Assembly (NCBI GenBank): GCA_903826865.1
Contig: CAIKGD010000007.1
Location: 1-64,000 of the forward strand
Length of the DNA stretch: 64,000 bases
Direction: 5' to 3'
Source of the DNA: an uncultured Verrucomicrobiota bacterium
GTDB lineage: Bacteria > Verrucomicrobiota > Kiritimatiellia > Kiritimatiellales > Tichowtungiaceae
This document shows positions 11,813 to 62,362 of the stretch, one piece after another. The position numbers and the translations under genes are program-made. The notes beneath the pieces were generated by a model. It was not told where the DNA came from. It saw only the letters and a program-made list of their open reading frames with translations, and searched no databases. Every line of letters begins with the position of its first letter. Position 1 is the stretch's first letter.

Positions 11813-11832
11813 CCATGGGGTGTAACCCTACT
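11813..11832 (-). promoter_or_regulatory. Operator palindrome 1 (toward phosphoketolase)
   Basis: Minus-strand AGTAGGGTTACACCCCATGG matches the 20-bp consensus GGTAGGGTTNNACCCCATAG. CGTAAA begins exactly 18 bp downstream and is a good -10. The start codon is 62 bp from the element. Confidence 0.8.
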
Positions 11833-11837
11833 GCGGG

Positions 11838-11857
11838 CTTAGGGTTACACCCTATAG
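11838..11857 (+). promoter_or_regulatory. Operator palindrome 2 (toward GH1/glycosyltransferase)
   Basis: CTTAGGGTTACACCCTATAG has perfect 6-bp arms TAGGGT/ACCCTA around TAC. It lies in inverted orientation 5 bp from operator 1, one for each divergent gene. A CGTAGA starts 13 bp downstream, closer than the usual 18, so the -10 here is uncertain. The GH1 start is 121 bp away. Confidence 0.75.
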
Positions 11858-11977
11858 CGAAAAACTGCCGCGTAGAACAACATACTAAGAAAGATAAGGA
11901 ATAAAGGAAATAACCATCAACAAACAACTGGATATCCGAAGACTTTTTCGGATACTCAGATACAGAAAATAATCCGT

Positions 11978-13357
11978 ATGGAGCACACCGCCTTATCCGA
12001 ATCCAAAGACAGTCTGAAATTCCCGGACAACTTTATCTGGGGCACGTCAACAGGCGGTCATCAAGTCGAAGGCGGCAACAAAAATTCCGACTGGTGGGTC
12101 TGGGAACTGAAGGGGCTGATCGAGGACAAAACCGTCTCCGGCCGCGCTATGGATTACTGGAACCGCCACGAAGAAGATCATGCCCTTATGGCAAAACTGA
12201 ATTACAAAGGGTTTCGCCTCGGTATTGAATGGGCCCGTGTTGAACCGCAGAAAGGCTGTTTCAATCGCGAGGTGATTGATCATTACCGGCGCATCCTTCA
12301 ATCCCTTCGCGACCACAAATTCACCATCTGTCTTACTCTGCACCACTGGGTAAAACCGAGCTGGGTCGCCGATCAGGGCGGCTGGATGAATCCTGATACG
12401 GTGAACGACTTTCTGAGATACGCGAAGTTTGTGATCGATGAACTCGGCTCATTTCCCGACTACTGGGTGACGCTCAACGAGCCGATGGTGCCGGCGATCA
12501 TGGGCAATTTTTTGGGGCGATTACCGCCGCACCGCCATTCGATCAAGGCGTATCGCTCCGTATCCAAAGCCTTTCTTCGCGCTCATGCAGAAACCTATCA
12601 CCTGATCCATTCCAGACATCCGCTGGCACCGGACGGGACGAAATCAAAGGTGGGGGTTGCTATGGCTTACCCATGGATTGAACCTTGGAATTCTCCGGGT
12701 CTTGCGGGCTGGTATGAGCGCATTGCCGCTTTTATTACCCGCCGGGCCGCCTTCGCAGGATGGGATTATACGATCCGAACAGGGAAGCCGCACTGGATCC
12801 ATGGCGGGCCGGCGGTTGCCGGTATTCAGGACACCTACGACTACTGCGGGATCAACTATTACATGCGGGTGTCATTGAAATACGACCGGCAAAGACACGG
12901 CCAGTACCGGATCGACAGCACCAAGGCGCCGCCGGGAATCGAGGTGACCCAGACGGGCTGGCAGATCTATCCGGAGGGCTTGTACCGCACGATCCATTCT
13001 GTATGGAAACGCTTCAGAAAACCGATCCTCATCACGGAAAACGGCATTGCAGACGATACCGACAAGCAACGCCCGCGCTACATGATCGAACATCTCGTAC
13101 AGATTCATCGGGCCATCCAGGAAGGCATCCCGATCCTCGGCTACTACCACTGGTCATTCCTCGATAATTTTGAATGGCAGTCCGGATTTGCTAAACGCTT
13201 CGGGCTGATCGCTGTTCAACACGACGATCCGGGTCTTCTGCGAGTGCCCCGCCCCAGCGCATACCTCTACTCCGAAATTGCACGCAAGAATGCGATAACA
13301 AAAGAAATGGTCGAGGCCCACGCCCCCGACCTCGTCGCGACGGTTTTTGGTGATTAA
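11978..13357 (+). CDS. GH1 family beta-glycosidase
   Basis: 459-residue retaining beta-glycosidase without a signal peptide. The N-terminus 'FIWGTSTGGHQVEGGN' is typical of family 1, the acid/base is in 'VTLNEPMVP' near residue 165, and the nucleophile is in 'PILITENGIADD' near residue 352; 'YYHWSFLDNFEWQSGF' near 387 forms the aglycone site. Sequence features such as 'LHHWVKPSW' recall plant/archaeal GH1 enzymes. It is followed after 12 bp by an MGDG-synthase-like glycosyltransferase, so the pair may remodel a glycolipid or store a beta-glucoside rather than digest cellobiose. The operator at 11838 serves this unit. Confidence 0.92.
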   Translation: MEHTALSESKDSLKFPDNFIWGTSTGGHQVEGGNKNSDWWVWELKGLIEDKTVSGRAMDYWNRHEEDHALMAKLNYKGFRLGIEWARVEPQKGCFNREVIDHYRRILQSLRDHKFTICLTLHHWVKPSWVADQGGWMNPDTVNDFLRYAKFVIDELGSFPDYWVTLNEPMVPAIMGNFLGRLPPHRHSIKAYRSVSKAFLRAHAETYHLIHSRHPLAPDGTKSKVGVAMAYPWIEPWNSPGLAGWYERIAAFITRRAAFAGWDYTIRTGKPHWIHGGPAVAGIQDTYDYCGINYYMRVSLKYDRQRHGQYRIDSTKAPPGIEVTQTGWQIYPEGLYRTIHSVWKRFRKPILITENGIADDTDKQRPRYMIEHLVQIHRAIQEGIPILGYYHWSFLDNFEWQSGFAKRFGLIAVQHDDPGLLRVPRPSAYLYSEIARKNAITKEMVEAHAPDLVATVFGD

Positions 13358-13369
13358 AAGGAGAACACA

Positions 13370-14569
13370 ATGATCAATAATCCTCCCCAGCAGCAGTCAA
13401 CAACTACCGATGCCATCTCGAGCATCCCCGAAAATCGACCTTCCAAAATTGTGATTTTATCGGCCAGCTCCGGCAGTGGACACACGCGCGCAGGCGAAGC
13501 GTTGGAAGCTGCCGCCGCAAACATGCCCGGCATTGCCTCGGTGAGGCACATCGACGTATTGGAATATGCTGCGCCCCTGTTCGGAGCGCTCTATTCGGAT
13601 TTGTACAAACAATTGGTCAGCAAGACTCCTTCGCTTTGGGGGTGGTGGTACGACAAAAGTGATACGCCGTGGAAGGGAGAAAATTTTCGCGTCGCCATGG
13701 AAAGCTTTCAGATGAAACCGCTCATCGAGTGCCTGCAGGCCGAAGATCCCGACATCACGATCTGCACGCACTTTCTGGCCTCTGATATCGTCTCCCACAT
13801 GCTGCAAAAAGAACAGCTGGTCACACGGCACGCCGTTGTTGTGACCGATTTGCACGTCCACGCCCTGTGGTTATGCCATCAGTTTGAACGCTATTTTGTT
13901 CCCACTGATGAGTCGGCCTATTACCTGCGTCAGATCGGGATTCCGGATGATCGCATCGCTGTTACAGGCATTCCTATTCATCCGATGTTCTCACAGCCCA
14001 TGGATCGGGAGGCGCTTCGGAAAAAATACGAAATCGATCTGTCCCTGCCGGTTGTTCTTCTATCCGCAGGAACCTTCGGCATGGAATCGAGCATCGAAGC
14101 CGTTCGAGCGCTCATGCATATGCAACAGCCCGCTCAAATCGTGGCCTTATGCGGAAGGAACGAGGATCTTCTAAAAGAAGTCGTGCTCATGGCGGAAGAA
14201 ATGCCGGCGCATTTGAAATTCAGAGCACTGCCTTATACCCCCGACATGCACGAATGGATGGCGATCTCCGATCTCTTTATCGGCAAGCCCGGCGGGCTTA
14301 CGTTTTCAGAAGCGATGGCGAGCGCCTTGCCCATGATTCTCTTGAACCCTATACCCGGACAGGAAGAGATCAATGCCTCAAGTATGCTTGAGCAGGGTGT
14401 GGCCGTGAGCCCGACAGATGTCGTCACACTTCCCTACAAAGCAGACCTGCTGTTGGGCGATCCGCAACACCTTGCCGGGATGAGAGACCGGCTGAAGCAA
14501 CTGGCACGACCTCGAGCAGCTTACACGATCCTCGATACGCTCCTTGGCATCCAGTCGGAGATTACTTGA
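13370..14569 (+). CDS. MGDG synthase-like GT28 glycosyltransferase
   Basis: 399 residues. 'KIVILSASSGSGHTRAGEAL' near residue 24 and the N-terminal layout match monogalactosyldiacylglycerol synthase/processive diacylglycerol glucosyltransferase; the donor-binding half has 'MEWMAISDLFIGKPGG'-like sequence ('SDLFIGKPGGLTFSEAMASA') near residue 303 and 'NPIPGQEEINAS' after it. It probably transfers hexose from a nucleotide sugar to diacylglycerol at the cytoplasmic membrane. AAAAGGAG stands before the ATG, 12 bp after the GH1 stop. A decayed copy of its last 18 codons lies at 14833-14889. It meets the small minus-strand gene with 17 bp between stops. Confidence 0.88.
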   Translation: MINNPPQQQSTTTDAISSIPENRPSKIVILSASSGSGHTRAGEALEAAAANMPGIASVRHIDVLEYAAPLFGALYSDLYKQLVSKTPSLWGWWYDKSDTPWKGENFRVAMESFQMKPLIECLQAEDPDITICTHFLASDIVSHMLQKEQLVTRHAVVVTDLHVHALWLCHQFERYFVPTDESAYYLRQIGIPDDRIAVTGIPIHPMFSQPMDREALRKKYEIDLSLPVVLLSAGTFGMESSIEAVRALMHMQQPAQIVALCGRNEDLLKEVVLMAEEMPAHLKFRALPYTPDMHEWMAISDLFIGKPGGLTFSEAMASALPMILLNPIPGQEEINASSMLEQGVAVSPTDVVTLPYKADLLLGDPQHLAGMRDRLKQLARPRAAYTILDTLLGIQSEIT

Positions 14570-14586: not shown

Positions 14587-14694
14587 TTACCGGCGAAGCA
14601 GCAAGACCACAACTACGATAACGAGAATGAGACCCAAACTGCTGCCGCCGATTAAGTATATGTTGGCCAACACAGGTGATAATAGCAGGTTCAT
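14587..14694 (-). CDS. 35-residue single-span membrane protein
   Basis: Small reading frame: short N-terminus, then 'GLILVIVVVVLLLRR' forming one membrane helix with an RR end on the cytoplasmic side. AAAGGACAG precedes the ATG at 14694. The operator at 14773-14792 lies 79 bp upstream and points at it, with CGTAAG 18 bp after the element, which strongly supports that it is a real gene. It resembles the small stress-induced hydrophobic peptides (DUF3309 or lmo0937-like) in general shape; I cannot place it in a family. Confidence 0.65.
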   Translation of the reverse strand: MNLLLSPVLANIYLIGGSSLGLILVIVVVVLLLRR

Positions 14695-14772: not shown

Positions 14773-14792
14773 CTATGGGGTTTAACCCTACC
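14773..14792 (-). promoter_or_regulatory. Operator palindrome 3 (toward the 35-residue membrane protein)
   Basis: Minus-strand GGTAGGGTTAAACCCCATAG is a perfect consensus match; CGTAAG follows after exactly 18 bp. No plus-strand gene would fit this orientation. Confidence 0.8.
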
Positions 14793-15025: not shown

Positions 15026-15259
15026 ATGCTGAAGAGATTCGGGTCGTTGCGGTTCTTTACTTATCGTGCGATTCCGTGGATTGCGCTGACTGCCACCGGC
15101 GGTTTGCGCGCCGTCCGAACGATCATCGAGTCACCATTTGCCGAGGAGCGCGGCAAGGTCTGGTATTTCGCCGGCCACGGTGCGGAGCGCAAGCTCCTGC
15201 ACAACACAGCGTGGATTTACAAAGGCACGCTGACAGCACCAGAGAAAGACAAATCATGA
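15026..15259 (+). pseudogene. Truncated copy of the propeller-like secreted protein (C-terminal end)
   Basis: A 77-codon open frame with a good start (GGGAGG before ATG) but its last ~50 residues are the tail of a much larger protein: 'GLRAVRTIIESPFAEERGKVW...HNTAWIYKGTLTAP' lines up with 'HGIRTVAPSPWEKGVYYFGG...SDTAWIYKGTLTPT' (end of the gene at 22160-23569) and 'VATRTIEVSPFPEDKGRVLY...HNTAWIYKGTLKE' (end of 20517-22163). The stop overlaps the next gene by ATGA, as in the rest of the block. So a propeller gene once headed this operon and lost its 5' part. The short hydrophobic N-terminus may still act as a leader that couples translation of the esterase. Confidence 0.75.
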
Positions 15260-16260
15260 AAACAATCATCACTGCAATCATCTGCCTCTCAGCCGTTCTT
15301 GCCTGCCGGACACTCTCTGCACAGGACAAGCCCCAGAGCGGCGATCACAGTTTTACTATCAAGGTCGGCGATCTCCAGCGCCACTACACCGTCCACATTC
15401 CGCCGCAGTACGACGGCAAGATGCCGGTGCCAGTTGTCGTCATGTTGCACGGCGGGGGCGGCACCGGCAAAGCCGCCGCCGAGGAAACCGGTTGGGACAC
15501 GAAGGCAGATAAAGGAGGATTCCTTGCCGTTTTCCCCGACGCGATGGCACGCGACCCCGGCAAGCCGGGCAGTTTCGCCCGCAACCCGCAGCTCTGGAAC
15601 GACGGCTCAGACCGGTTCTATCCCGGTCAGAACGCGCCTGACGACGTGGCTTTTCTCAACGCAATGCTCGACGACCTCGCCGCCCGGTTTGCCGTGGACA
15701 CGCGGCGCATCTATGTCACGGGTTTCTCGAACGGGGCCTCTATGTGCTTCCGGTTCGCCGCTGAGGCGTCGCAGCGTGTGGCCGCCATCGCCCCGGTTGC
15801 AGGCGCGTGCTGGCTGGAGAAGGTCACCTTGGAGCGCCCCGTGCCGATGTGCTACATCACCGGTACGGCCGACCCGCTCAACCTGATCGAAGGCGGCGTA
15901 CCGAAGCTCGCGACCGGTGCCAGCGACAAGATCCGCGCGAAACCAAAACCGCCCGTGCGCGACTCGATTCTGAAGTGGATCGGGGCCGTCGCCGCTCCCG
16001 CAAGGCCGCGAACCACGACGGAAGTGAACGGCGTTCGCATCGAAACCTACGGCGCTGACTGCGACAGCGCGGAGGTAGTCTATGTCACTGTCGAAGGACT
16101 CGGCCACACATGGGCCGGGGGCAAGAGCCTGCTGCCGGAGTTCATGGTCGGATCCGAATCAGACAAACTCAAGGCCACGGATATGATCTGGGAGTTTTTC
16201 CAAAAACATCCGATAAAACCGTTCGCCGCATCCAAACCGCAACCAACAGAGAAGCCATGA
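15256..16260 (+). CDS. Secreted PHB-depolymerase/feruloyl-esterase-like hydrolase (CE1-like)
   Basis: 334 residues with a signal peptide (about 1-23, ending 'TLSAQD'). Alpha/beta hydrolase of the LpqC/Esterase_phb type: oxyanion loop 'VVVMLHGGGGTGKAA', nucleophile Ser in 'VTGFSNGASMCFR' near residue 157, and catalytic His in 'EGLGHTWAGG' near residue 284. Such enzymes cut ester side groups (feruloyl, acetyl) of plant polysaccharides or short polyesters outside the cytoplasm. The C-terminus 'SKPQPTEKP' is nearly identical to that of the esterase ending at 20520. ATGA overlaps link it to both neighbours. Confidence 0.85.
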   Translation: MKTIITAIICLSAVLACRTLSAQDKPQSGDHSFTIKVGDLQRHYTVHIPPQYDGKMPVPVVVMLHGGGGTGKAAAEETGWDTKADKGGFLAVFPDAMARDPGKPGSFARNPQLWNDGSDRFYPGQNAPDDVAFLNAMLDDLAARFAVDTRRIYVTGFSNGASMCFRFAAEASQRVAAIAPVAGACWLEKVTLERPVPMCYITGTADPLNLIEGGVPKLATGASDKIRAKPKPPVRDSILKWIGAVAAPARPRTTTEVNGVRIETYGADCDSAEVVYVTVEGLGHTWAGGKSLLPEFMVGSESDKLKATDMIWEFFQKHPIKPFAASKPQPTEKP

Positions 16261-18551
16261 AAACAAAACCCCAACGATCCCTCGCTCTGCGGCTCCTCGT
16301 GCTTATCGCGTTCTGCGGCGGTTCATCTTTCGCCGCAGAAATGGTGGAGTCGCTCGACATCCGTTACGCGACGATGCCGGGCGTGGATCCGAATCTCCTC
16401 TCGCTCGACATTCACACACCGAAGGCCGCGAAGGCCGCGCCGGTGGTCATCTACGTGCATGGCGGGTATTGGAAGGCGGGCGACAAGAGCGAAATGGGAC
16501 GACTGCCGGAGTTCTTCTGTGGTCACGGATTTGTGCTCGTGAGCGTGAACTACCGTCTCGCGCCTGCGGCTAAGCATCCGGTGCTGATTCAGGACGTGGC
16601 GCGCTCCGTGGCGTGGGTGCATGACCACATTGCGGAGTATGGGGGCGACCCGGCGCAGATTTTTCTCACGGGACATTCGGCGGGCGCGCAACTCGTGGCG
16701 TTGCTCGGCACGGATGCGAAGCGTCTCGGCGAGCTTGGCAAGCCGCTCTCGATCCTGCGTGCCGTCATCCCGCTCGACTCAGCCGCCATGGACATCCGCG
16801 ACGTGGCGGCGAACGACCGCCGCCTGGACAGTCCCTATCGCACGGCCTTCGGCGATGAGCCTGCGGGCTGGGCCGATGCTTCGCCCATCGTCCATGCGGC
16901 AGGAGGGAAAGGATTGCCGCCGTTTCAAATCGTCGTGGCCTACGGTCCGGCCATCGCAAACAAGAAGGAGGGCGTGGACGAGTTTGCGGCGTTGTTGCGC
17001 AAAGGCGGCACACGCACCGAGGTCGTCGATGCGTCGTCCTTCCGCGAGCATCAATCGCTGATGACCGAGTTCGGTGCTGCGGATGACCCGGTGAGCGCGG
17101 CGGTGCTGGAGTTCATCGAATCCGTGCGTGCAGGCAAAGCCACCGCCGGTCTCGGCGGCGAGTGCGTGCTCAAAGCCGAAGGCAAGTCCGCCGAAGAAGC
17201 CGCGCGCAATCTCGAAGCCTACCGCACGCGCATCCTGATGAAGCAGTTCGATAAGAATGGCGACGGTCGCATCACGCGTGAGGAGATGAGCACGCAGACG
17301 TTTCTTTTCGGGCAGATGGATGCGAACAAAGATGGCCTCGTCACGACCGAAGAACTCGCCGCCTTTCATCAGCGCACGCAGCCAATTCAAAAGGCACCCG
17401 CCAAACCCGAATCACCTGCGAAAACGTCCGCCGACGCTTGGAAGCCCGACGACCAAGACATCGGCTCCGCCAGCGTCTCGTATCGCGACCCTGAGTTCCT
17501 GCAAAGCGGCGGACTCGTCACCTTTGCCGACCAGAACGGCAACGTGTGGGTCGGCGCGATGGATTTGCAGACCGGTCGTTTCGTGAAAGCCAACGGCGGC
17601 CGCGATCACCGGCTCGACGGCCCGATTTCCGAATGGTCGCGTTACTGCAACGGCCCCGAGTGGGGATTCGACGCGAACGGTTCGGCCATCTTTTACATCA
17701 AGGACAATGCGCAGGGCACCGGCCAGCTCTGGCGTGCGCAGCCGCCGTGGAACAAGCCGCTGATTACACAACTCACCCGCGACACGGACATCCATAACTG
17801 GATTTGCGAGCCGTCGGTGAACCCGACGTTGCCTTCGACGCGCGTCATCGTTTATCACGGCAAACCGCAGTCACAGGGCAACGTGGACGCGTGGCTTGAC
17901 GAGGACAAGCCTGACCGGTTGCAGCCGTTTACCGACCGGATGATCGTCGCGCGTTGGTGCTACAACACCAACCTTATCACCTTCGCGTATCGCGCACAAC
18001 CTGGACAGACCGAGCCGTCGCAGGTCACGCTGGTGGACACCGACACCGGCAAGTCCCGCATCATCACCGCGGACGAAGGCAACAAGATTGACCCGTGGCT
18101 CTGGCGGGCTCCCGAATTCGGAGGCGAAGTGTTGCTCTGCGCCAACATCGACAGCCATACTCTGGGAATCTACCGCGACGTGAACCACGACAGTAGCCCG
18201 TGGCAGCGCATCGCCACGCTCACGCTGCCGTCCGACGCGCCGCACCAGACGCTCAAATCCGTCGAGCCGGTCAACGGCGGGCGCGGTGCGTTTGGCCGCT
18301 CGTGGTTCACCGCACAAGCCGGTGACGACAAAGACAAAGACACCTCCATCTGGCTCCTTGGTTTCGACCCGAACGGCACGCACACCATCCGCCGCCTCGA
18401 CGACGGCGCGCAGACCGGAAAGCCCGCCCGCCGTCTCGACCCCGAAAGCTACATCGGCGAACGCGAGTTGTTTGTCTACTATACGCTCGTCGGCGACGGC
18501 TCATCCCAACTCCACCGTTGCCGCACAGCGATCACCAAGGAAAAACCATGA
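16257..18551 (+). CDS. Secreted fusion: alpha/beta hydrolase, EF-hand pair and WD/TolB-like propeller
   Basis: 764 residues with a signal peptide (about 1-24). Residues 35-290 are a BD-FAE/Abhydrolase_3-type esterase: 'VVIYVHGGYWKAGDKS', 'SVNYRLAPAAKHP', and nucleophile Ser in 'LTGHSAGAQLVALLG'. Residues ~320-370 are two calcium-binding EF-hands: 'DKNGDGRITREEM' and 'DANKDGLVTTEEL'. After a Pro/Lys-rich linker, residues 400-764 look like a beta-propeller with repeated 'LVTFADQNGNVWVGAMDLQ' and 'EWGFDANGSAIFYIKDN' style blades. The likely role is binding and de-esterification of a polymer at the cell surface, with calcium stabilising the linker. Its first ~40 codons are almost identical to those of the gene at 23566. 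Confidence 0.8.
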   Translation: MKTKPQRSLALRLLVLIAFCGGSSFAAEMVESLDIRYATMPGVDPNLLSLDIHTPKAAKAAPVVIYVHGGYWKAGDKSEMGRLPEFFCGHGFVLVSVNYRLAPAAKHPVLIQDVARSVAWVHDHIAEYGGDPAQIFLTGHSAGAQLVALLGTDAKRLGELGKPLSILRAVIPLDSAAMDIRDVAANDRRLDSPYRTAFGDEPAGWADASPIVHAAGGKGLPPFQIVVAYGPAIANKKEGVDEFAALLRKGGTRTEVVDASSFREHQSLMTEFGAADDPVSAAVLEFIESVRAGKATAGLGGECVLKAEGKSAEEAARNLEAYRTRILMKQFDKNGDGRITREEMSTQTFLFGQMDANKDGLVTTEELAAFHQRTQPIQKAPAKPESPAKTSADAWKPDDQDIGSASVSYRDPEFLQSGGLVTFADQNGNVWVGAMDLQTGRFVKANGGRDHRLDGPISEWSRYCNGPEWGFDANGSAIFYIKDNAQGTGQLWRAQPPWNKPLITQLTRDTDIHNWICEPSVNPTLPSTRVIVYHGKPQSQGNVDAWLDEDKPDRLQPFTDRMIVARWCYNTNLITFAYRAQPGQTEPSQVTLVDTDTGKSRIITADEGNKIDPWLWRAPEFGGEVLLCANIDSHTLGIYRDVNHDSSPWQRIATLTLPSDAPHQTLKSVEPVNGGRGAFGRSWFTAQAGDDKDKDTSIWLLGFDPNGTHTIRRLDDGAQTGKPARRLDPESYIGERELFVYYTLVGDGSSQLHRCRTAITKEKP

Positions 18552-19522
18552 AAACAACCAGCACCATTATCAGCCTGTCGGTCATTTTTGCCAGCATTAC
18601 TCTCTGGGCGCAGGAATCGCTCAAACCGCCCGCCGTTCCCACCGCGGAGACGCGGGCGAAGATTGAAGCGCAGCGGAAAAAAATCGCCGCGCTGCCAGTG
18701 CCGGTAGGTCTGGCGCGGCGCACGCTGAAGGTGGGTGAGGTCGAGCGCGAGTTTTTCATCCACATCCCCGAGACGTGCAAAGGCAAGGCCTCGCCCGTGG
18801 TGTTTGCCTTGCACGGCGGTTCGGCCAGCAGCGGGCTGGCGATGCACTTGAAAGTGGACTACACGCCGGTCGCCGATCGCGATGGCTTCGTGGTCGTGTA
18901 TCCCTCCGGCATCGAGGGCTGGAACAATGGCGTGAAGCACAAATACACCGGCGGTGTGAATACATCCGATGACATCGGGTTTTTCCGTGCGATGTTCGAC
19001 ACGCTCATTGCGGAGGGCGTGGCCGATGCGAAGCGCATTTACATCACTGGCGGCAGCAACGGCGGCGTGATGACCTACAAGTTACTCAGTGAAATGGCGG
19101 ATCGCATCGCCGGCGCTGGTGTCGTCGTGGCGACGCTGCCGGAAATCGTAAAAACCTGGCCGAAGCCCTCGCGCCCGGTGCCCATTCTCATCATGCTCGG
19201 CACGAATGATCCGATGATGCCGTGGGACGGCACACAAGGGCAGCAGTCGGCGCAGGCGACGATTGAGTATTGGAAAGCCATCAACGGCTGCACCGGCGAG
19301 AGCGTGAAGAAGGAATGCCCCGACAATGACCCGAACGACGGCTGCCGCGTCCACGCGCAGCGTTGGGAAGGCAAAGCCCCCGTCTTTTTTTACACGATGG
19401 AAGGCCACGGTCACGGCTGGCCGATGCAGAAAGGCCGCGATGAAACCGGCACCGGCCCGAAGACACGCGACATCTCCGCGCCGGAGGAGTTCTGGAAGTT
19501 TTTTCATAAGGAGAACCAATGA
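18548..19522 (+). CDS. Secreted CE1-like esterase
   Basis: 324 residues; signal peptide 'MKTTSTIISLSVIFASITLWAQ'-like, cleaved near residue 22. Alpha/beta hydrolase: 'VEREFFIHIPETCKGKA', oxyanion loop 'VVFALHGGSASSG', nucleophile in 'YITGGSNGGVMTYKLL' near residue 176, acid near 'MLGTNDPMMPWDG' and His in 'EGHGHGWPM'. Cysteines in 'INGCTG', 'KKECPDNDPNDGCR' suggest a disulfide-bonded loop, fitting export. It is distinct from its two CE1-like neighbours at about family level. ATGA overlaps on both sides. Confidence 0.83.
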   Translation: MKTTSTIISLSVIFASITLWAQESLKPPAVPTAETRAKIEAQRKKIAALPVPVGLARRTLKVGEVEREFFIHIPETCKGKASPVVFALHGGSASSGLAMHLKVDYTPVADRDGFVVVYPSGIEGWNNGVKHKYTGGVNTSDDIGFFRAMFDTLIAEGVADAKRIYITGGSNGGVMTYKLLSEMADRIAGAGVVVATLPEIVKTWPKPSRPVPILIMLGTNDPMMPWDGTQGQQSAQATIEYWKAINGCTGESVKKECPDNDPNDGCRVHAQRWEGKAPVFFYTMEGHGHGWPMQKGRDETGTGPKTRDISAPEEFWKFFHKENQ

Positions 19523-26837: not shown

Positions 26838-27026
26838 TTATCGCACACGGATGCTGTTGATGCTGCCGATGACGCCAAACGTCTGAAGCAGCCACAAAAC
26901 CAGAACTAACACCACAACGATGTTGAGGATGTTTTTGACCGGCCCGGCCATCGGGATATAGGTATTAATTGCCCACAGCGCGACGCCGGCGACGACCAGT
27001 ATAATGACGATGTTAATGAGCGGCAT
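26838..27026 (-). CDS. Thivi_2564-type small membrane protein
   Basis: 62 residues, two membrane helices: 'IVIILVVAGVALWAINTYIP' and 'ILNIVVVLVLVLWLLQTFGV', joined by 'MAGPVKNI'. This pattern is typical of the small Thivi_2564-type proteins often found in stress gene clusters. AAAGGAG precedes the ATG. First gene after operator 4, 67 bp from it. Confidence 0.8.
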   Translation of the reverse strand: MPLINIVIILVVAGVALWAINTYIPMAGPVKNILNIVVVLVLVLWLLQTFGVIGSINSIRVR

Positions 27027-27092: not shown

Positions 27093-27112
27093 TATGGGGT
27101 GAAACCCTACCG
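27093..27112 (-). promoter_or_regulatory. Operator palindrome 4 (toward small membrane protein, repeat protein and tal)
   Basis: GGTAGGGTTTCACCCCATAG on the minus strand, perfect match; CGTAGT starts 18 bp downstream. To its other side, 27113-27197 is a non-coding stretch with irregular ATGAA and AAGCCT tandem sequence. Confidence 0.85.
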
Positions 27113-28730: not shown

Positions 28731-28750
28731 ACATAGGGTGAAACCCTACC
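28731..28750 (-). promoter_or_regulatory. Operator palindrome 5 (toward radical SAM gene)
   Basis: Minus-strand GGTAGGGTTTCACCCTATGT has perfect 6-bp arms TAGGGT/ACCCTA. A weak -10 (CCTATC) starts 18 bp downstream. It is the copy closest to a start codon. Confidence 0.75.
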
Positions 28751-31279: not shown

Positions 31280-31281
31280 AC

Positions 31282-33300: not shown

Positions 33301-33401
33301 GGTAAGACTCCTTTTCCAGTGCTTATGCCATCTGTTTTTCTGTATGCGTGCCTTCGTCATCGCTAAAGTATATCGGGGTTGCTTTTGCATGTCCACGCTG
33401 A

Positions 33402-35968: not shown

Positions 35969-35988
35969 CTATGGGGTAAAACCCTACC
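35969..35988 (-). promoter_or_regulatory. Operator palindrome 6 (toward PAS-GAF kinase and sulfur genes)
   Basis: Minus-strand GGTAGGGTTTTACCCCATAG, perfect match. The -10 (CGCTAC) starts 17 bp downstream, preceded by GTTG as in copies 7, 11 and 12. Start codon 42 bp away. Confidence 0.8.
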
Positions 35989-38965: not shown

Positions 38966-38985
38966 CTATGGGGTATAACCCTACC
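38966..38985 (-). promoter_or_regulatory. Operator palindrome 7 (toward lipoprotein and WXXGXW genes)
   Basis: Minus-strand GGTAGGGTTATACCCCATAG, perfect. CATAAT, a near-consensus -10, starts exactly 18 bp downstream and is preceded by GTTG. Confidence 0.85.
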
Positions 38986-44490: not shown

Positions 44491-44510
44491 CGATGGGGTA
44501 AAACCCTACC
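44491..44510 (-). promoter_or_regulatory. Operator palindrome 8 (toward CHASE3 kinase)
   Basis: Minus-strand GGTAGGGTTTTACCCCATCG; CGTAGC starts 19 bp downstream. It abuts the cbpM remnant at 44511 just as operator 11 abuts the real cbpM end, so operator and remnant were probably copied together. Confidence 0.8.
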
Positions 44511-45106: not shown

Positions 45107-45126
45107 GTATGGGGTGAAACCCTACC
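45107..45126 (-). promoter_or_regulatory. Operator palindrome 9 (toward DUF5320-like protein)
   Basis: Minus-strand GGTAGGGTTTCACCCCATAC; a CGCATAG stands 18 bp downstream (GCATAG at 19). Confidence 0.75.
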
Positions 45127-53957: not shown

Positions 53958-54064
53958 GTTATTCTTACTTTCCGTCCGCAACTTCTGCCGTTAACCCCTC
54001 AAAGGCGATGCGGGGGAAAAGAAGAAGTCTGGCGACATACGGCATAGACACCGGGATGTCACGG

Positions 54065-54328
54065 CTACTCCTGCATTTCCGCACCGGTTTTTTCCATTGC
54101 GGAGCCGGCTTTCTTCAGCGATTCGCCGGTTTTTTCAATCATCTTTCCCGTAAACTCCTTAGTCGCTTCCGCCGCTGTTTTTGTCGCTTCCACAGTTTTT
54201 TTCGCAGCCGTATCCAGCGTTGCGCCGGTTTCCTTCCCGACTTCAGCGGCTGTTGGCGGGTTGTCACAGCCGGTCAAAAACACGACGCCAAACACCGCCG
54301 CAATCCCTGTAAGTTTGATTCTATTCAT
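54065..54328 (-). CDS. Small LEA-like lipoprotein
   Basis: 87 residues. Signal and lipobox 'VVFLTGC' (Cys near residue 21). The mature part is Ala/Lys/Thr/Glu-rich with 11-residue-like repeats ('TAAKKTVEATKTAAEATKEF', 'KTGESLKKAGSAMEKTGAEM'), predicting an amphipathic helix like LEA or entericidin-like stress lipoproteins. Operator 10 is 53 bp upstream. It precedes the glucan synthase gene and may be in one operon with it. Confidence 0.75.
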   Translation of the reverse strand: MNRIKLTGIAAVFGVVFLTGCDNPPTAAEVGKETGATLDTAAKKTVEATKTAAEATKEFTGKMIEKTGESLKKAGSAMEKTGAEMQE

Positions 54329-54380: not shown

Positions 54381-54400
54381 CCATGGGGTGAAACCCTACC
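54381..54400 (-). promoter_or_regulatory. Operator palindrome 10 (toward lipoprotein and glucan synthase)
   Basis: Minus-strand GGTAGGGTTTCACCCCATGG. The -10 is less clear: CCTATG starts 19 bp downstream. It lies 10 bp after the end of the PPK2 gene. Confidence 0.75.
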
Positions 54401-54410
54401 TTGCGAGGCG

Positions 54411-55280
54411 TCAGAGTTGTTTACGGATAAGTTCCAATTCCTGCCTGCGTTTGGCAGTGGTCTTTGGATTGTCCATTTTTAAATCTTCGAGCACATCCAG
54501 GATGACTTGTGCGACGATCAGCCGGGCATTGTCTTTGTCATCGGCGGGAACAACATACCACGGCGTATGACGTGTGCTTGTTGCATTCAGGCAGTTTTCG
54601 TAGGCTTTCATGTACTCTTTCCAGAGTTTCCGCTCTTCCACGTCCGCCTGACTGAATTTCCAGTTTTTATCCGGCTCATCGATGCGGGCGAGGAAGCGTT
54701 TTTTCTGTTCGTTTTTTGACAGGTGCAGGAAGAATTTGACGATCCGGGTGCCGTTGCGGTGGAGATGCTCCTCTAAATCCAGAATGGAGCGATAGCGCTC
54801 TTCCCAAATGGTTTTCTCATTCAGCAGCTCCGGCGGGAGTCCCTGACTGCGGAGAATTTCCGGATGGACGCGGACGATGAGCACCTCCTCGTAATAGGAG
54901 CGGTTGAAAACACCGATCCGTCCGCGCGCCGGCAGACAGCGCGTCGTGCGCCAAAGGAAGTCGTGCTGCAGTTCTTCTGCGCCCGGATGCTTGAAGCTGT
55001 AGACTTCGCAGCCCTGCGGATTAATGCCGGACAGTACGTGACGGATGATGCCATCTTTGCCGGCGGCATCCATGGCCTGAAAGATCAGCAGCAGCGCGTA
55101 ACGGTTGGACGCGTAGTGAACGCGCTGCAGATCGCTCAGTTTTTCAACCTGAGTTTCCAGCAGTTTTTTGTACTCCTGCTTCGACCCGTAAAAAGGGTCT
55201 ATCTGCGTCGGCAACTTACTGAGTTTGATTTTCTCTCCGGGCTTCACGCGGAAATCTTTTGAGTGGATTTTCATTTTCAT
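54411..55280 (-). CDS. Polyphosphate kinase 2 family protein
   Basis: Transfers phosphate between polyphosphate and nucleotides. 289 residues: Walker A '[20 protein letters not shown]' near residue 60, lid '[20 protein letters not shown]' and Walker B-like '[14 protein letters not shown]' near 130, and '[20 protein letters not shown]' after. This is the one-domain PPK2 type with 'polyphosphate--nucleotide phosphotransferase' signature. The ATG at 55280 begins before the conserved start; an ATG at 55274 is also possible. It sits between a CheB-like gene (53 bp upstream) and operator 10. Confidence 0.92.
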
Positions 55281-55332
55281 TCTTTCTGCGGCGTGGCGAT
55301 GAGCACGCACACCATCATTTAATTCAGCACTT

Positions 55333-56028
55333 TTACTCAGTTCTGGACACCTCATGTGCAATTCGCACGATTTCATGAGCGATATCCTCAGGAGAAAGAA
55401 TCAGATCAATACAACCGCTTGCGATAGCGCTCTCCGGCATATCGGGCTGTCCGGCGGTGTCGGGCTTCTGTGCGATAGTAATGCCGCCCGCTTCTTTTAT
55501 ACCGCATAGTGCTGCCGCGCCGTCGCCATCATAGCCGGAGACAATGACCGCGATCAGTTTTCCGTCCCAATGCTTCGTCAGAGAACGCATGAAAACCGTG
55601 ATCACGTCGGGCCAACCTCTGGGTTTTGATATCGGCTTTAGACGGAACTCTCCATTGAGGACGTGCAAGTCGCGCTTTTCGGGAATGATGAATACATGGT
55701 CGGGCTCGATGTCTAATTTTTCCGTGATCAATTCAACCGGCATCTTTGTGTAGTGCGGGAGAATTTCGTGGAGCGTAGTGGCTACGGTTCTCAGGTGATT
55801 AACGATGACGATAGCCACGCCCATATCGGCTGGCAGATGCTGCAGCAACCGGATATAGGCGTCGAGACCGCCAGCCGACCCGCCTACGCAAACCACAGGA
55901 AAGTTCTTTGCATGACGCCGGGACTTCATTTTGGATTGCTCCGCTTCCAGTTGCTGATTTTTTGCCCGGGTTATGCGTCTATGTTGAGGATTAGTTCCGG
56001 GCTCAGTGTCTCTGCTTTCATGCTTCAT
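55333..56028 (-). CDS. CheB-type methylesterase without receiver domain
   Basis: 231 residues. The catalytic Ser is in '[14 protein letters not shown]', His in 'IVIVNHLRT' and Asp in '[13 protein letters not shown]', so the CheB esterase core is intact while the N-terminal receiver of classical CheB is absent. No chemoreceptor or other che gene is in the window; stand-alone CheB proteins in stress clusters may demethylate another target. GGAAGG precedes the ATG at 56028. It lies 58 bp after the alpha/beta hydrolase gene. Confidence 0.85.
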
Positions 56029-56086
56029 TTGCCTTCCTGTATTCGCCGCATCCCCAGCTCGGCAAAATTCACCGCCCGTGATATCC

Positions 56087-56911
56087 TCACGTCTTAAGGA
56101 ACGCCAGCAGATCGGCGTTGAGTTGATTCCGGTGGGTATACGCAAGGCCGTGGGGCGCGCCGGGGTAAATTTTCAGGGTCGCGGCCTTAACCAGTTTTGA
56201 TGAGCGAAGCGCTGCAGCACCGATCGGCACAATCTGGTCGTCGTCGCCGTGAACGATCAGCGTCGGCACGTCGAACTTTTCGAGGTCTTCTGTAAAATCT
56301 GTTTCGGAAAATGCTTTGATGCAGTCGAAGGTATTCTTGGCACCGGCCTGCATTCCCTGAAGCCAGAACGAGTCAATCATGCCCTGCGAAACTTTGGCGC
56401 CGGGCCGGTTCGCACCGAAAAAAGGACCGCTGGCGATATCTTTGTAGAACTGCGAGCGGTCGGCGGTAGAGCCATGACGGATTTCGTCGAACTTCTCAAT
56501 CGGCAGGCCGCCGGGATTGGCCGCCGTTTTCAGCATCAGCGGCGGAACGGCGGAAATCAGTGCGGCTCCGGCTAACCGCTTTGTTCCGTGGCGGCCGATG
56601 TAGCGGGTCACTTCGCCGCCGCCTGCAGAAAAGCCGACCAGAACAGCGCCCCTCAGGGCGAGCGTTTCGATAAGCTCCGCGAGATCGTCGGCATAGGTGT
56701 CCATGTCGTTGCCGCTCCAGGGCTGGCTCGACCGGCCGTGTCCGCGGCGGTCGTGGGCAATGCAACGATAGTCGTTAGAGGCCAGAAACAGCATCTGCGC
56801 TTCCCAGCTGTCTGAGTTTAGGGGCCAGCCATGGCTGAATACCACAGGCTGTCCCGCGCCCCAGTCCTTGTAAAAAATCTTTGCACCGTCTTGAGTCGTA
56901 ATCGTGCTCAT
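56087..56911 (-). CDS. Non-haem chloroperoxidase-like alpha/beta hydrolase
   Basis: 274 residues. '[20 protein letters not shown]' holds the oxyanion segment, the nucleophile Ser is in '[20 protein letters not shown]' near residue 96, the acid in '[14 protein letters not shown]' and the His in '[13 protein letters not shown]' near 255. Sequence is typical of cofactor-free perhydrolases/esterases, which can make peracids; the natural substrate is unknown. Cytosolic. Same-strand neighbours suggest a long unit from sodA to PPK2. Confidence 0.88.
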
Positions 56912-57879: not shown

Positions 57880-58569
57880 TTATTTCAACTGCGCCGCTGC
57901 AAATTCCCAGTCCGCCAGATGATCAATGAAGGCTTCGACGAAATCTTTGCGGCGATTCTGATAGTCCAGATAATAGGCGTGCTCCCAGACGTCGCACGTC
58001 AAGAGCGCATTTTGACCGTGTGCGATCGGTGTATCGGCATTCGACGTTTTGACGATCTTCAACGCGTCGCCGTCCTGTACAAGCCAGACCCACCCGCTGC
58101 CGAACTGCGCGACGGCGGCAGCCGTGAAAGCCTCTTTAAATTTATCGAAGCCGCCGAACGATGTTTCGATCATCTTCAGCAGCCTGCCGGCAGGCTTTCC
58201 GCCTTCGCCCGGCTTCATGCTCTTCCAGAAAAAAGTATGGTTCCAGACCTGCGCCGCATTATTGAAAACGGCAGTTTTGTCCGGCAGGCCTGCGCTTTCC
58301 AAAATAACTTTCTCCAGCGTCTGTCCTGAGGCCCACGGTGTTCCTGCGACCAGCTTGTTCAGATTGTCCACATAGGCCTGATGATGTTTGCTGTAGTGGA
58401 AACTCATCGTCCGGGCCGACAGGTAAGGCTCCAGAGCATTCTGAGCGTAGGGCAGCGACAGCAGCGCGAACGCGGGTGCCGGCGGCTCCGCCTTTGCGGC
58501 GACAGCCATGCCCACCAAAGGGGCCAGAAACCAAACAGCCGACCAACTTTCACCGATGTACGCATTCAT
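57880..58569 (-). CDS. Exported Fe/Mn superoxide dismutase
   Basis: Turns superoxide into peroxide and oxygen. 229 residues with a likely signal peptide (to about residue 28), so it should act in the periplasm. Metal ligands: His in 'MSFHYSKHHQAYVDNL', His in 'VWNHTFFWKSM', and Asp and His in 'LLTCDVWEHAYYLDYQNRR'; 'GSGWVWLV' is the usual core. The ATG at 58569 is 66 bp from operator 11. First gene of a unit that may run through DUF6132, hydrolase, CheB and PPK2 genes. Confidence 0.93.
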   Translation of the reverse strand: MNAYIGESWSAVWFLAPLVGMAVAAKAEPPAPAFALLSLPYAQNALEPYLSARTMSFHYSKHHQAYVDNLNKLVAGTPWASGQTLEKVILESAGLPDKTAVFNNAAQVWNHTFFWKSMKPGEGGKPAGRLLKMIETSFGGFDKFKEAFTAAAVAQFGSGWVWLVQDGDALKIVKTSNADTPIAHGQNALLTCDVWEHAYYLDYQNRRKDFVEAFIDHLADWEFAAAQLK

Positions 58570-58634: not shown

Positions 58635-58654
58635 CAGTGGGGTATAACCCTACC
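58635..58654 (-). promoter_or_regulatory. Operator palindrome 11 (toward sodA), overlapping the cbpM stop codon
   Basis: Minus-strand GGTAGGGTTATACCCCACTG. The TAG at its start is the stop codon of cbpM, so the operator is partly coding. TGCAAC, preceded by GTTG, starts 18 bp downstream and is a weak -10. Confidence 0.8.
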
Positions 58655-58991
58655 TCCGGCTGCGCAAAAAACGCACTTCGGCCCGCAGGCGCTCCACCTC
58701 TTTGATCAGATCGAACAGGGTTTTGATCCAGACCAGATCAAGGCCTTGAACAGTTCGCATGTACTCGATCCGCCGCACGGCATGAACAGCTTCTTCCGTG
58801 AATTCCATCATTCCATCCGGCGACGCAAAGACAGGTTGTACAAGACCGGCGCGGCAGTAAATCAGAATGGAGCGGCGGGGGACGCCGGCAAGACGGGCGG
58901 CTGCATCGAGACTGTAAAGCACATCGGGGCCGGGCAGAAAAACCTCAATGGAAAGGCGCTCCGGGCTGTCAGGAACATCTTGATTTTTCAT
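58650..58991 (-). CDS. cbpM: Chaperone modulator CbpM-like MerR-type protein
   Basis: 113 residues. '[20 protein letters not shown]' is a MerR-like helix-turn-helix, followed by 'CRAGLVQP' and a C-terminal coiled coil ('[20 protein letters not shown]'). In E. coli CbpM binds and restrains the J-domain protein CbpA; the position right after cbpA with an ATGA overlap says the same here. DNA binding is possible but not needed for that role. A decayed copy of its end lies at 44505-44546. Confidence 0.85.
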
Positions 58992-59968
58992 GAGATTTTC
59001 CTCGGGTTGAACGTGGATTTCGCGGCCAGCTTTTCCCACAGGACTTTTTCTTCCGGTGTAACCTGCGCCGGGACCTGAATGGATACGGCGGCGTGAAGGT
59101 CGCCGCGCTGCTTATTGATGCTTGGCAGACCTTTTCCGCGCAGACGGAATTTCCGTTCGTCCGTTGTTCCGGGCGGAATTTTAAGAGACGCTGTTCCATC
59201 CAGAGTCGGTATGCCGACGGTGGCTCCCAGCACGGCTTCCCACGGAGAGAGCTCCAAATCATAAAACAGGTCGGCATCCTTCACGCGGAAATCGGGATGC
59301 CGGGCGAACTTAACCCGCAAATACAGGTTGCCCGGATTGCCGCCGCCCGCACCTTCCCCTCCTTGACCCGCGAGGCGGATAAGCTGCGCTTCGCGGACGC
59401 CGGGCGGAATTTTCACCTGCAAGGTCTGATCCGCGGTCTGCCCTGTGCGCGGATCAGTGCGTTGCAGTTGTATTTTGCGCATCGAGCCGTGCAGGACTTC
59501 CGTAAGCGTAACCAGAATATCGCCTTCAATATCCTGTCCGTTCCTTGCGACGGATCCGCCGCGCATTCCGGACTCCGTCGCCTGGCCGAAACCGCCGGAC
59601 GGGCGTCCGCGACTGCCGAAGAACTGCTCGAAGAAATCGCTGAAGCCCGTACCTTCAAAATGGTAGTCAGACCCTTCGCCGGAATCTCTGCCGAATCCCC
59701 CGTATGCACCGCCCGGCTGCGAAGCCTGCCGTTCGGGATGATCCCGGTTTTCGACCAGCTCATCATACTTCCGCCGCTTATCCGGGTCGCTGAGGACTTC
59801 GTTGGCCTCGTTGACTTCCTTGAACTTCACTTCGCCGGTGACTTTGTCTTTTGTAGTATCGGGATGATATTTGCCCGCCAGTTTGCGGAAGGCCTTCTTG
59901 ATTTCAGCATCGCTTGCATTTCGTGCCACACCGAGGACGGCGTAGTAGTCCTTGAATTCAACCGGCAT
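58988..59968 (-). CDS. cbpA: DnaJ-class co-chaperone CbpA
   Basis: 326 residues. J-domain 1-70 with '[13 protein letters not shown]' (HPD present), a Gly/Phe-rich stretch ('[20 protein letters not shown]'), and two C-terminal substrate-binding barrels with the paired 'LQVKIPPG' and '[20 protein letters not shown]'. There is no zinc finger, so it is CbpA-type rather than DnaJ. It stimulates DnaK ATPase, but no dnaK is in the window. It overlaps grpE by 11 bp and cbpM by 4 bp. Confidence 0.95.
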
Positions 59969-60488
59969 GACGGACTCCGGGAGAATGATTCAGAACATTT
60001 ACAACGACCTTGGCCGGACGGAAGATCTGATCGCCGAGGCTGTAGCCGCGATGCGTAACTTCAAGAATGATTTGATCGGGCTGGTGCGGATCATGCCGCG
60101 CACAAACCGCCTCGTGACGGTGAGGATTGAAAGGCAGGCCGATGTCCTCGACGGGCTCAATACCGTGGCGGCGGAGCAACTGAGCCAGCTGTTGCAGCGT
60201 TATAGCCACACCTTGATGAAGGGGTGTAGAAGCCGGAGAGTGCTCGGCAGCCAGAGCGAGCTCGAGATTGTCGAGCACCGGCAGCAAGTCGCGGATGAAG
60301 GCTTCTTTTTCCGCCGCAGCGGCCAGTCCGGAGTCCCGCCGGGTGCGTTTCTTGAAATTTTCGAAGTCGGCGGCGAGCCTCAGATAATGATCCTTCTGTT
60401 CAGCCAGCTCCTCACGGAGAACGACAGAATCATCTGCCGCTGCGGGCTCGTGCGCATCGTCTGCCGGGTCTGGAAGATCGGACTGCAT
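59958..60488 (-). CDS. grpE: GrpE nucleotide exchange factor
   Basis: 176 residues. A long helix ('[20 protein letters not shown]') leads into 'NFKKRTRRD', then '[17 protein letters not shown]', '[20 protein letters not shown]' and '[20 protein letters not shown]', the GrpE hallmark. It releases ADP from DnaK. The ATG at 60488 has AAAGGGAG; a start at 60518 adds ten residues without a site. This GrpE is coded with cbpA-cbpM, so it may be a second, stress-specific GrpE. Confidence 0.93.
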
Positions 60489-60541
60489 GTACTCCCTTTC
60501 ATTGACATTTTGCGGCATCCGTTTTCCCGCTCATAGCGCTG

Positions 60542-60940
60542 CTATTTTGTTTGGTTTTTCGCCCGGGTCACTTCTTCCAGCATTTTTGCGGCACCGGATT
60601 TTTCCATCCACGTTTTTTCATTCATAGCCGTGCGGAGCATGGCGCAGCCGCAGACGGCATAGGCCGTTCCCAGACATACTCCGAGGAGCGCCTTCGCTTT
60701 CACGGTCCAGGGCAGCAGGATGAACAGTCCCGCATGAAACAGCAGTACGCCAAGGCAGACGAGGCCGATCATGAACACTGTCCGTATCAGACTGATGGCC
60801 GATAACCGGGCCATTTGCACACCGTGCAAATAGGACTTCGCGGCCTCGATCCTGAGCAGTTGAATGGACAGATGCCGGTAGTTGGCCAGCACCTTGACGG
60901 CGAGAGCCGACACAATTCCCCTGAACAGACACCTAATCAT
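60542..60940 (-). CDS. YqjE-like inner-membrane protein
   Basis: 132 residues with two hydrophobic spans ('VFMIGLVCLGVLLFHAGLFI', 'AKALLGVCLGTAYAVCGCAM') and charged ends. It follows the YqjD/DUF883-like gene by 23 bp, the order found for yqjD-yqjE in enterobacteria. Function not known; probably anchors or regulates a membrane complex under stress. The ATG at 60940 is chosen; the longer frame to 61036 would overlap the gene before. Confidence 0.7.
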   Translation of the reverse strand: MIRCLFRGIVSALAVKVLANYRHLSIQLLRIEAAKSYLHGVQMARLSAISLIRTVFMIGLVCLGVLLFHAGLFILLPWTVKAKALLGVCLGTAYAVCGCAMLRTAMNEKTWMEKSGAAKMLEEVTRAKNQTK

Positions 60941-60963
60941 AAAGCGGCCTGACGGATGAAGTT

Positions 60964-61311
60964 TTACTTGCGATCCCGGCCGAGAACATAGCCGAGCAGC
61001 AAACCGACGACTGCCGTACCGCCGATGTAAGGCCATGGATTGCGGTGGACACTTTCGTCCACTTCGCCAGCCAGTTCCCGGGCTTTCTCGACACCGACTT
61101 CCTTGGCATGAGCGGCGGCTTCGACGGCATGTTTTCTGGCATCGGACAGTGATCGGACAAGACCGCTTTCAGTCTCTATGATCGCGTTTCGCAGATGCAT
61201 GTATTTGTCTGACATGACGCTCTTTAACTCGTCTTTCTTCTGCTTCGCCGCCTCTTCAAGAAGCTTCAACGCTTCCGCGATATTCTCACTGCTTGTTTTT
61301 GTAGTTTCCAT
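60964..61311 (-). CDS. YqjD/ElaB-like DUF883 protein
   Basis: 115 residues: a long Lys/Glu/Ala helix (~1-88, coiled coil) and a C-terminal membrane anchor 'IGGTAVVGLLLGYVLGRDRK' led by 'HRNPWPY'. This is the ElaB/YqjD/DUF883 layout; in E. coli these proteins hold ribosomes at the inner membrane in stationary phase. It is the second gene after the BON protein (100 bp) and the first of a grpE-proximal run. Confidence 0.85.
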   Translation of the reverse strand: METTKTSSENIAEALKLLEEAAKQKKDELKSVMSDKYMHLRNAIIETESGLVRSLSDARKHAVEAAAHAKEVGVEKARELAGEVDESVHRNPWPYIGGTAVVGLLLGYVLGRDRK

Positions 61312-61411
61312 GATAACTCTTTCTGCTTTTGCGCACCTTGTTGCTGTTAACCGGGCTGGGTTTTACTTCCGGCCGGTGCAGGAAGGCACCGGCCGGTAAC
61401 AATCCTGCCGA

Positions 61412-62191
61412 TTACTTGGTCTTCGGTACTTCGACTGTCATTTCATTCATCACGCTGGTTACGCCCTGAATGTCGGTGACAAGCTTGGTGACCAGAGACT
61501 TTTCAGCTGCGGTCTTGGCAATACCGGTCAATGTGACCGTGCCGTCCCGCGTTTCGACTTTTGTGCTGATCGAGCTGGTAGAACGATGGGTCAACAGCGC
61601 TGTCTTAACCTGAGCCGTGACGGAGGCATCATCCATTTTTTCGCCCGCTGTGCGTTCCGCCATGACCGGCATCACCGCTACGGTCATCTCATTCTTCACT
61701 TCTTTTACGCCTTCGATATCTTTGGCGTATTCGGCAGTCAGTTCTTTCTGAGCGACGCCCGAAGCTTCACCCTTCAAGGTCACGATTCCGTCTTTCACTT
61801 CGACGACAGTTTTGCTGCCGTTAACGTTGCGATGGAACAGCAGGGCGAGTTTTACTTTTCGGCCGATCCACATATCCGCGTTTTCGGCGGCGGCTTCGGC
61901 TTTGGTCGCCAGTTTATTATCAACACGAACGACGCCGGGCAGACTGGTTACAGTTTCCTGCGCCAGAGTCTTGTGGGATTCTTCGGCTACAGTCCCTGTC
62001 AATGTGACGAGACCGTTTTTGGCTTCGGTTTTGATGGAATCATTCATCAGATACGTCTTGTAGACGTAGGTCTTCTTGAACGACGACTCGATTTTATCAT
62101 CCGTCTCGGATGCGCGCAGCGGTGCGCCGGTGAAAAATACAGCAGCCGCAGCCGCTGCAAACGCTAAACGATACATTACTTTCAGTTTCAT
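61412..62191 (-). CDS. Exported three-BON-domain protein
   Basis: 259 residues; signal peptide about 1-29 ('AAVFFTGAPLRASE'). Three BON domains (~32-100, ~108-175, ~185-255), each with a 'V-x-D/T-G-x-V-T-L-x-G' core: 'KNGLVTLTGTVAEES', 'KDGIVTLKGEASGVA', 'RDGTVTLTGIAKTAA'. BON proteins (OsmY, Kbp type) lie in the periplasm, bind membranes and are induced by osmotic or envelope stress. The ATG at 62191 begins the signal peptide. Operator 12 is 152 bp upstream, so a ~120-nt leader is predicted. Confidence 0.9.
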   Translation of the reverse strand: MKLKVMYRLAFAAAAAAVFFTGAPLRASETDDKIESSFKKTYVYKTYLMNDSIKTEAKNGLVTLTGTVAEESHKTLAQETVTSLPGVVRVDNKLATKAEAAAENADMWIGRKVKLALLFHRNVNGSKTVVEVKDGIVTLKGEASGVAQKELTAEYAKDIEGVKEVKNEMTVAVMPVMAERTAGEKMDDASVTAQVKTALLTHRSTSSISTKVETRDGTVTLTGIAKTAAEKSLVTKLVTDIQGVTSVMNEMTVEVPKTK

Positions 62192-62342
62192 TCTTGTTTC
62201 CTTGTTTTTGGTTGTTGCGGGGAATTCCCCATGTTGATGGAACAGGTCGAACGCATGCTTTTTACTTCGCGGCACCTCCCTTCCGGTGTTGAATCCAATC
62301 TGTTTCTACTGTGGTGAGACTACGCAACGAGCCGGCGGCTTG

Positions 62343-62362
62343 CTATGGGGTGTAACCCTACC
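62343..62362 (-). promoter_or_regulatory. Operator palindrome 12 (toward BON protein and chaperone unit)
   Basis: Minus-strand GGTAGGGTTACACCCCATAG, perfect. CGTAGT at 62319-62324 starts exactly 18 bp downstream and is preceded by GTTG. The leader that follows carries no gene. Confidence 0.85.

Follow-up and report, generated by a model that had tools for sequence, protein, structure and literature searches.

A repeated dyad on a 62-kb chromosomal stretch of a Kiritimatiellales bacterium as the candidate operator of a NarL/FixJ-type two-component system

What reads a short dyad that recurs in front of gene after gene on one stretch of a bacterial chromosome? The question is raised by contig CAIKGD010000007.1 of an uncultured Verrucomicrobiota bacterium of the Kiritimatiellales (assembly GCA_903826865.1), whose first 64,000 nucleotides we call the window. 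An earlier sequence-only reading had listed 12 copies of a 20-bp palindrome there and had taken them as the mark of a regulon. We found all 12 in the form TAGGGTTNNACCC[C/T]A, the listed 20-mer starts being exact for 11 and off by 1 bp for the remaining one (27093). With good confidence, and arguing from sequence, we propose that a two-component system encoded within the same chromosomal island uses the repeat as its operator, and that its NarL/FixJ-type regulator would act there by class II activation.

The repeat and its promoter layout

The repeat consists of the arms TAGGGT and ACCCCA around a 3-bp spacer, as had been described, but it is an imperfect palindrome, and the conserved GG on the 5' side of the 15-bp core and T-R-G-C on its 3' side are nonsymmetric and lie outside the dyad. 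The site at 11840 has fully symmetric arms, and among the 12 it alone has its core on the plus strand, the other 11 being on the minus strand. When up to two mismatches were allowed, the window gave 26 strand-matches, of which all but 2 were the 12 sites read on either strand, whereas 100 shuffled windows gave a mean of 1.85 (standard deviation, 1.42) and at most 7.

We then searched the whole genome (2,644,415 bp in 88 contigs, 98% complete). There were 14 exact copies of TAGGGTTNNACCCYA, all on the contig of the window between 11,816 and 74,211 and two of them (67765 and 74197) past the window, and the reversed pattern used as a control had no exact match in the genome. With up to two mismatches, 22 of 50 genome-wide matches fell outside the known sites, compared to 30 for the control, and a single off-island place (C11:33791) came within one mismatch. 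Since near-matches elsewhere are so few, the sites are nearly all-or-none and restricted to one stretch. A search of 120 kb of the contig for weaker copies (up to four mismatches to a 21-bp consensus, or five plus a -10 element) revealed nothing beyond the 14 known main-form places. A variant that we term the second form, described below, adds one site, and these 15 sites are the following.

11816..11830, minus strand: operator facing the phosphoketolase gene (9388-11751)
11840..11854, plus strand: operator with fully symmetric arms, facing a unit of GH1 and monogalactosyldiacylglycerol (MGDG)-type glycosyltransferase genes (11978-14569)
14776..14790, minus strand: operator facing an open reading frame (ORF) for a 35-amino-acid membrane peptide (14587-14694)
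27095..27109, minus strand: operator facing an ORF for a 62-amino-acid membrane protein (26838-27026) and 26262-26813
28734..28748, minus strand: operator facing a radical SAM/DUF4070 gene (27198-28697)
35972..35986, minus strand: operator facing a PAS/GAF hybrid kinase gene (33402-35927), then metallo-beta-lactamase, rhodanese and sulfur-transport genes
38969..38983, minus strand: operator facing a 102-amino-acid lipoprotein-like ORF (38584-38892) and 36792-38528
44494..44508, minus strand: operator facing a CHASE3-PAS hybrid kinase gene (40228-44409) and a receiver-HisKA gene (39075-40226)
45110..45124, minus strand: operator facing a 48-amino-acid Gly/Lys-rich ORF (44853-44999)
54384..54398, minus strand: operator facing a small lipoprotein gene (54065-54328), then a GH94 glucan synthase-type gene (45345-53981)
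58638..58652, minus strand: operator facing an Fe/Mn superoxide dismutase gene (57880-58569)
62346..62360, minus strand: operator facing a BON-domain gene (61412-62191), with GrpE and DnaJ genes further downstream
67765, past the window on the same contig: operator of the main form
67822, past the window on the same contig: operator of the second form, facing an ice-binding-like gene
74197, past the window on the same contig: operator of the main form, heading a DUF5670 peptide gene

None of the 15 sites (14 of the main form, 1 of the second) overlaps a gene in our own gene list, and the noncoding share of 11.75 to 74.3 kb is 7.7%; sites at an equal rate inside genes, an outcome named beforehand as speaking against a regulon, were thus not seen. 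From the end of the site to the start codon there are 36 to 154 bp, depending on the start chosen, and the gap shrinks to 17 bp if a TTG start at 35954 is taken. Most gene units of the stretch have a site. The exceptions are four runs, namely, the esterase block, the transaldolase (25033), a PPK2/CheB/hydrolase run (54411-56911) located upstream of site 54384, and a DnaJ/GrpE run (58988-61311). Some of these could possibly be transcribed by read-through from a neighbor.

The sites also have a fixed relation to a predicted promoter. We aligned 72 reads of the main form, 16 from this genome (two symmetric sites being counted on both strands) and 56 from relatives, and found a -10 element at a constant place after the core, with its A in 78% and its final T in 75% of the reads; no other column from +19 onward exceeded 0.42 bits. 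The motif TAnnnT lay at offsets 22 to 24 after the site in 35 of 64 distinct sites; other offsets had it in 1.9 sites on average and in at most 6. For this genome alone, the count was 10 of 12. When the last T of the -10 element is set to -7, which makes the start point a predicted one, the center of the dyad falls at about -43, directly followed by a poor -35 element (T-R-G-C-R-A). On this predicted layout, a dyad near -43 just upstream of a weak -35 is in the position of a class II activator.

A candidate regulator and its association with the sites

Which protein could bind there? The probable reader, a response regulator, is encoded about 5 kb past the window, with a kinase gene and a CheB-CheR-PAS gene upstream of it on the same strand.

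69085-69771, minus strand: NarL/FixJ-type response regulator (Pfam Response_reg and GerE)
69768-71174, minus strand: PAS/HisKA_3 kinase with HATPase_c (Pfam), overlapping the regulator gene
71179-73851: CheB-CheR-PAS fusion, between the DUF5670 peptide gene and the kinase-regulator pair, about 5 bp from the kinase gene

The DUF5670 peptide gene headed by site 74197 lies about 140 bp upstream of the CheB-CheR-PAS gene on the same strand, and given this gene order one site may head the unit encoding the switch; DUF5670, CheB-CheR-PAS, kinase, and regulator genes probably form one operon behind it. CheB-type first genes stand behind sites in related loci as well. Among 50 ORFs of the island region scanned with Pfam, the regulator is the only protein with a recognized DNA-binding domain. 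Its phospho-acceptor residues are conserved, D14, D59, and K109 being invariant in 29 aligned sequences, and the genome holds no other close homologue, the next protein having 29% identity. No NCBIfam response-regulator equivalog reaches its cutoff among the matches listed (25 of 92 families), of which the best is MctR, at 195 bits for a cutoff of 300.

We next examined whether regulator and site occur together in 288 genomes of the phylum, of which 41 have a close orthologue (E < 1e-60), 12 a distant one (about 1e-45 to 1e-55), and 235 none, the 1e-60 cut having been chosen after the gap was seen. The sequence TAGGGTNNNACCCCA was present in 29/41, 6/12, and 15/235 of these genomes, respectively, with 144, 13, and 25 sites in total. 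Comparison of the close and none groups gave a Fisher P value of 5.7e-19, which overstates the independence of the counts because the genomes are related; when all 53 orthologue matches are pooled, the main form is found in 35/53 versus 15/235 genomes. A hand count of the reversed control gave 56 sites (14 in close, 1 in distant, and 41 in none), counts that place the genomes without a regulator at background for the main form. Within 58 near relatives, all five genomes in which a close orthologue was found carry the main form, and none of the three with a distant orthologue only has a site. The system is patchy, as sites are present in only 4 of 14 genomes of the same genus.

The association also holds at the level of the locus. 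We collected the best 80 of 574 regulator relatives with their surroundings (1.13 Mb in total), by record title mostly from Verrucomicrobiota, Kiritimatiellota, and Lentisphaerota, with a few Omnitrophota and a single locus each from Fibrobacterota, Acidobacteriota, and Bdellovibrionota. These last are drafts (L144 for Fibrobacterota, L141 and L143 for the other two), and of three main-form sites at the Fibrobacterota locus, two precede the regulator by 91 and 114 bp. Around the 80 loci we counted 55 copies of the main form, while 59 other orderings of its half-sites average 0.3 copies, with 5 at best. A site lies on the same strand less than 4.5 kb upstream of the regulator in 18 of the 80 loci. 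Regulator and sites are also found together in a cultured relative, Haloferula sp. BvORR071 (locus L120), the entry for which bears no label as a metagenome-assembled genome.

When we looked for repeated palindromes in the 49 regulator loci that lack the main form, the second form emerged, TGGGGT-N4-ACCCCA, of which there are 34 copies around the 80 loci (at most 1 for 14 other half-site orderings). TAGGGT and ACCCCA are separated by 3 bp in 53 cases, by 4 bp in 8, and by 0 bp in 1; TGGGGT and ACCCCA are separated by 4 bp in 34 cases and by 3 bp in 4, spacers other than 3 and 4 being nearly absent. The second form is fully symmetric, unlike the main form with its asymmetric arm, and both are scattered over the regulator tree. 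Either form is present in 43/80 loci and in 34/59 loci of at least 10 kb. The genome studied here has exactly one exact second-form site (67822), with its -10 element at the same offset as in the main form, and the occurrence of both forms in one island suggests a single reader. Such a reader would tolerate two spacer lengths, each paired with one left arm (3 bp with TAGGGT, 4 bp with TGGGGT), a proposal to which, jointly with the ancient stress programme considered below, we give an even chance. A CCGGCA palindrome (18 copies) was rejected as an alternative operator, since all copies came from one locus, and a link between the form of the site and the residue after EKHR in the regulator was dropped for want of a clean split. 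Contig 1 of genome G053, which has no regulator match, carries 21 copies of TGGGGT-N4-ACCCCA, apparently a repeat of its own.

The first genes behind the sites were picked mechanically, so that some are clearly not genes, and second-form sites without a -10 element on the side read were dropped; 74 of 90 distinct picks were scanned, the 16 from our genome being left out. Among the families listed (25 of 81), we counted HATPase_c 10 times, HisKA_3 9, receiver 8, BON 5, GerE 4, ice-binding 3, and CheB, DUF3309, and DUF5670 2 each. BON, ice-binding-like, CheB, DUF5670, and kinase genes are shared with the island studied here. Co-occurrence and proximity are, like the sites, their confinement, and their promoter layout, direct observations, and the idea of a regulon is upheld by sites that are intergenic, gene-facing, confined to one island, at a fixed distance from a -10 element, and associated with one response-regulator family.

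From this arrangement we infer a scheme of phosphorylation, binding, activation, and positive feedback. The PAS/HisKA_3 kinase would phosphorylate the regulator (69085-69771), which would bind as a dimer to TAGGGT-N3-ACCCCA or TGGGGT-N4-ACCCCA centered near -43 and recruit sigma-70-type RNA polymerase to promoters whose -35 element is poor. The 15 sites would thereby command units for phosphoketolase, superoxide dismutase, a BON protein, the GH94 glucan synthase-type protein, small membrane proteins, the ice-binding-like protein, and two other sensor-kinase units. The kinase-regulator unit itself being site-headed, positive feedback would result. Hybrid sensor kinases come first in two of the site-headed units (33402-35927 and 40228-44409), so induction may, speculatively, widen the range of signals sensed.

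Rival readings and the setting of the island

Several findings weigh against this scheme. The main form is missing from 12 of the 41 genomes with a close orthologue, and across whole genomes the second form follows the regulator only loosely (13/41, 2/12, and 19/235 by hand count). Conversely, several sites without a detected orthologue are present in G004 (5 sites) and G049 (2 sites), both among the 58 near relatives, and in G164 (4 sites); G024, G044, and G051, also near relatives, have 1 site each without a close orthologue. Neither form is found in 37/80 regulator loci. Of these, 25 span 10 kb or more, and on the regulator tree those 25 are grouped together (14 changes versus 20.6 when shuffled, with 0/500 shuffles as low), so part of the regulator family may read another site. 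Finally, a DNA-binding protein could be hidden among the scanned ORFs that match no Pfam family (10 of 50).

The site-bearing genomes without an orthologue, the site-less loci, and the 10 unmatched ORFs leave some room for another transcription factor as the reader, the NarL-type regulator merely traveling in the same island. We consider this unlikely, although it is the best of the alternatives. It has to face the association of site and regulator across 288 genomes, their proximity in 80 loci of several phyla, and the sites located ahead of kinase or regulator genes in several loci, and two of the exceptions, G004 and G049, are drafts of 290 and 240 contigs. The constant distance to the -10 element and the fixed orientation of the asymmetric form relative to it would also suit a promoter element of an alternative sigma factor. 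Against it, the block is a dyad whose spacer can be 3 or 4 bp, its second form is fully symmetric, and the -10 element keeps A2 and T6 as sigma-70 promoters do; judged by the sites and their promoters, this explanation is improbable. Slightly less probable still is that the regulator acts as a repressor: the dyad abuts the -35 element, where a bound protein could block polymerase, but repressor sites more often cover -35 to +1, and a center near -43 next to a poor -35 is the usual place of an activator. An REP (repetitive extragenic palindromic)- or MITE (miniature inverted-repeat transposable element)-type repeat without a regulatory role, for which a short intergenic palindrome in many copies might be taken, can be dismissed almost entirely in view of its confinement to one island, its gene-facing orientation, its tie to a -10 element, and the lack of a conserved flank past the promoter.

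Activation by the NarL/FixJ-type regulator as the favored reading leaves the question of what the island does. A role in stress is suggested by its phosphoketolase, superoxide dismutase, BON, chaperone, glucan synthase-type, and ice-binding-like genes, and it is on gene content that the earlier label of "stress or stationary phase" rests. With an operator of its own, the 62-kb stretch looks like a self-contained programme for stress. A broader proposal could equally turn out right or wrong: that a dormancy-like general stress programme of the Planctomycetota-Verrucomicrobiota-Chlamydiota (PVC) and neighboring phyla, run by one ancient NarL-type system and a functional counterpart of DosR/OsdR, is here gathered into one self-regulating island.

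Behind the hybrid kinase gene headed by site 35972, the region 28762-33405 encodes a sulfur-transport protein with rhodanese domains, a second sulfur-transport piece, and a metallo-beta-lactamase/rhodanese fusion. The esterase block (15076-24576) comprises seven plus-strand ORFs, of which several resemble alpha/beta-hydrolases or esterases and two match EF-hands. Its GC content is 0.61, compared to 0.54 to 0.59 elsewhere, it has no operator inside, and it looks like an insertion into the island. A tRNA-Ala gene (contig 77406-77481) lies just beyond the last operator; a mobile-island boundary at this gene was rejected, as no long repeat of the tRNA was found near the other end of the island.

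Comparison with known systems

In literature searches of open-licence papers, we found no matching operator among the papers listed, just as the sequence-only reading knew of none with this sequence, and no fitting stress-type regulon for Kiritimatiellota, Verrucomicrobiota, and their neighbors. The pairing of operator and regulator thus appears undescribed. For these phyla it supplies an operator defined by sequence, a candidate for its regulator, and a list of the genes of a stress-type regulon, and it would tie small proteins of unknown role (DUF5670, DUF3309, BON, and ice-binding-like) to one response. Large contiguous islands of stress-type genes have a precedent in the low-oxygen-activated (lxa) locus of Burkholderia cenocepacia.

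The OsdR/OsdK system of Streptomyces coelicolor is similar in being a two-component system with a palindromic site, autoregulation, and stress genes: OsdR is reported to have a 16-nucleotide palindromic consensus, AGGGCCGATCGGCCCT, the osdR gene is among its own targets, and stress genes surround the regulator genes (PMC5069765). The GGG-N8-CCC frame of that consensus equals that of the second form here (TGGG-N8-CCCA), whereas the main form, with its 3-bp spacer and asymmetric arm, does not fit; the inner letters and the phylum differ as well, the comparison being one of operator consensus alone (PMC5069765). DevR/DosR of Mycobacterium tuberculosis is likewise an autoregulated regulator of the NarL subfamily, and overlap of the site closest to the start point with the -35 element, to which the predicted layout here is similar, is reported as common to the promoters analyzed in that study (PMC3029386). 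DevR targets can have one, two, or more boxes, while most units here have one (PMC3029386). By nearest solved structures, the regulator of the island resembles VraR, DesR, and NarL, all of which score above DevR. Its kinase carries a PAS domain, unlike DosS and DosT, which are GAF heme sensors. In view of the differing inner letters, the 3-bp spacer of the main form, and a regulator with closer structural matches than DevR, we do not file the system in the DosR/OsdR family. By analogy, the regulon would nevertheless work as DosR and OsdR do and is in that sense of a known kind, a NarL-type two-component stress regulon.

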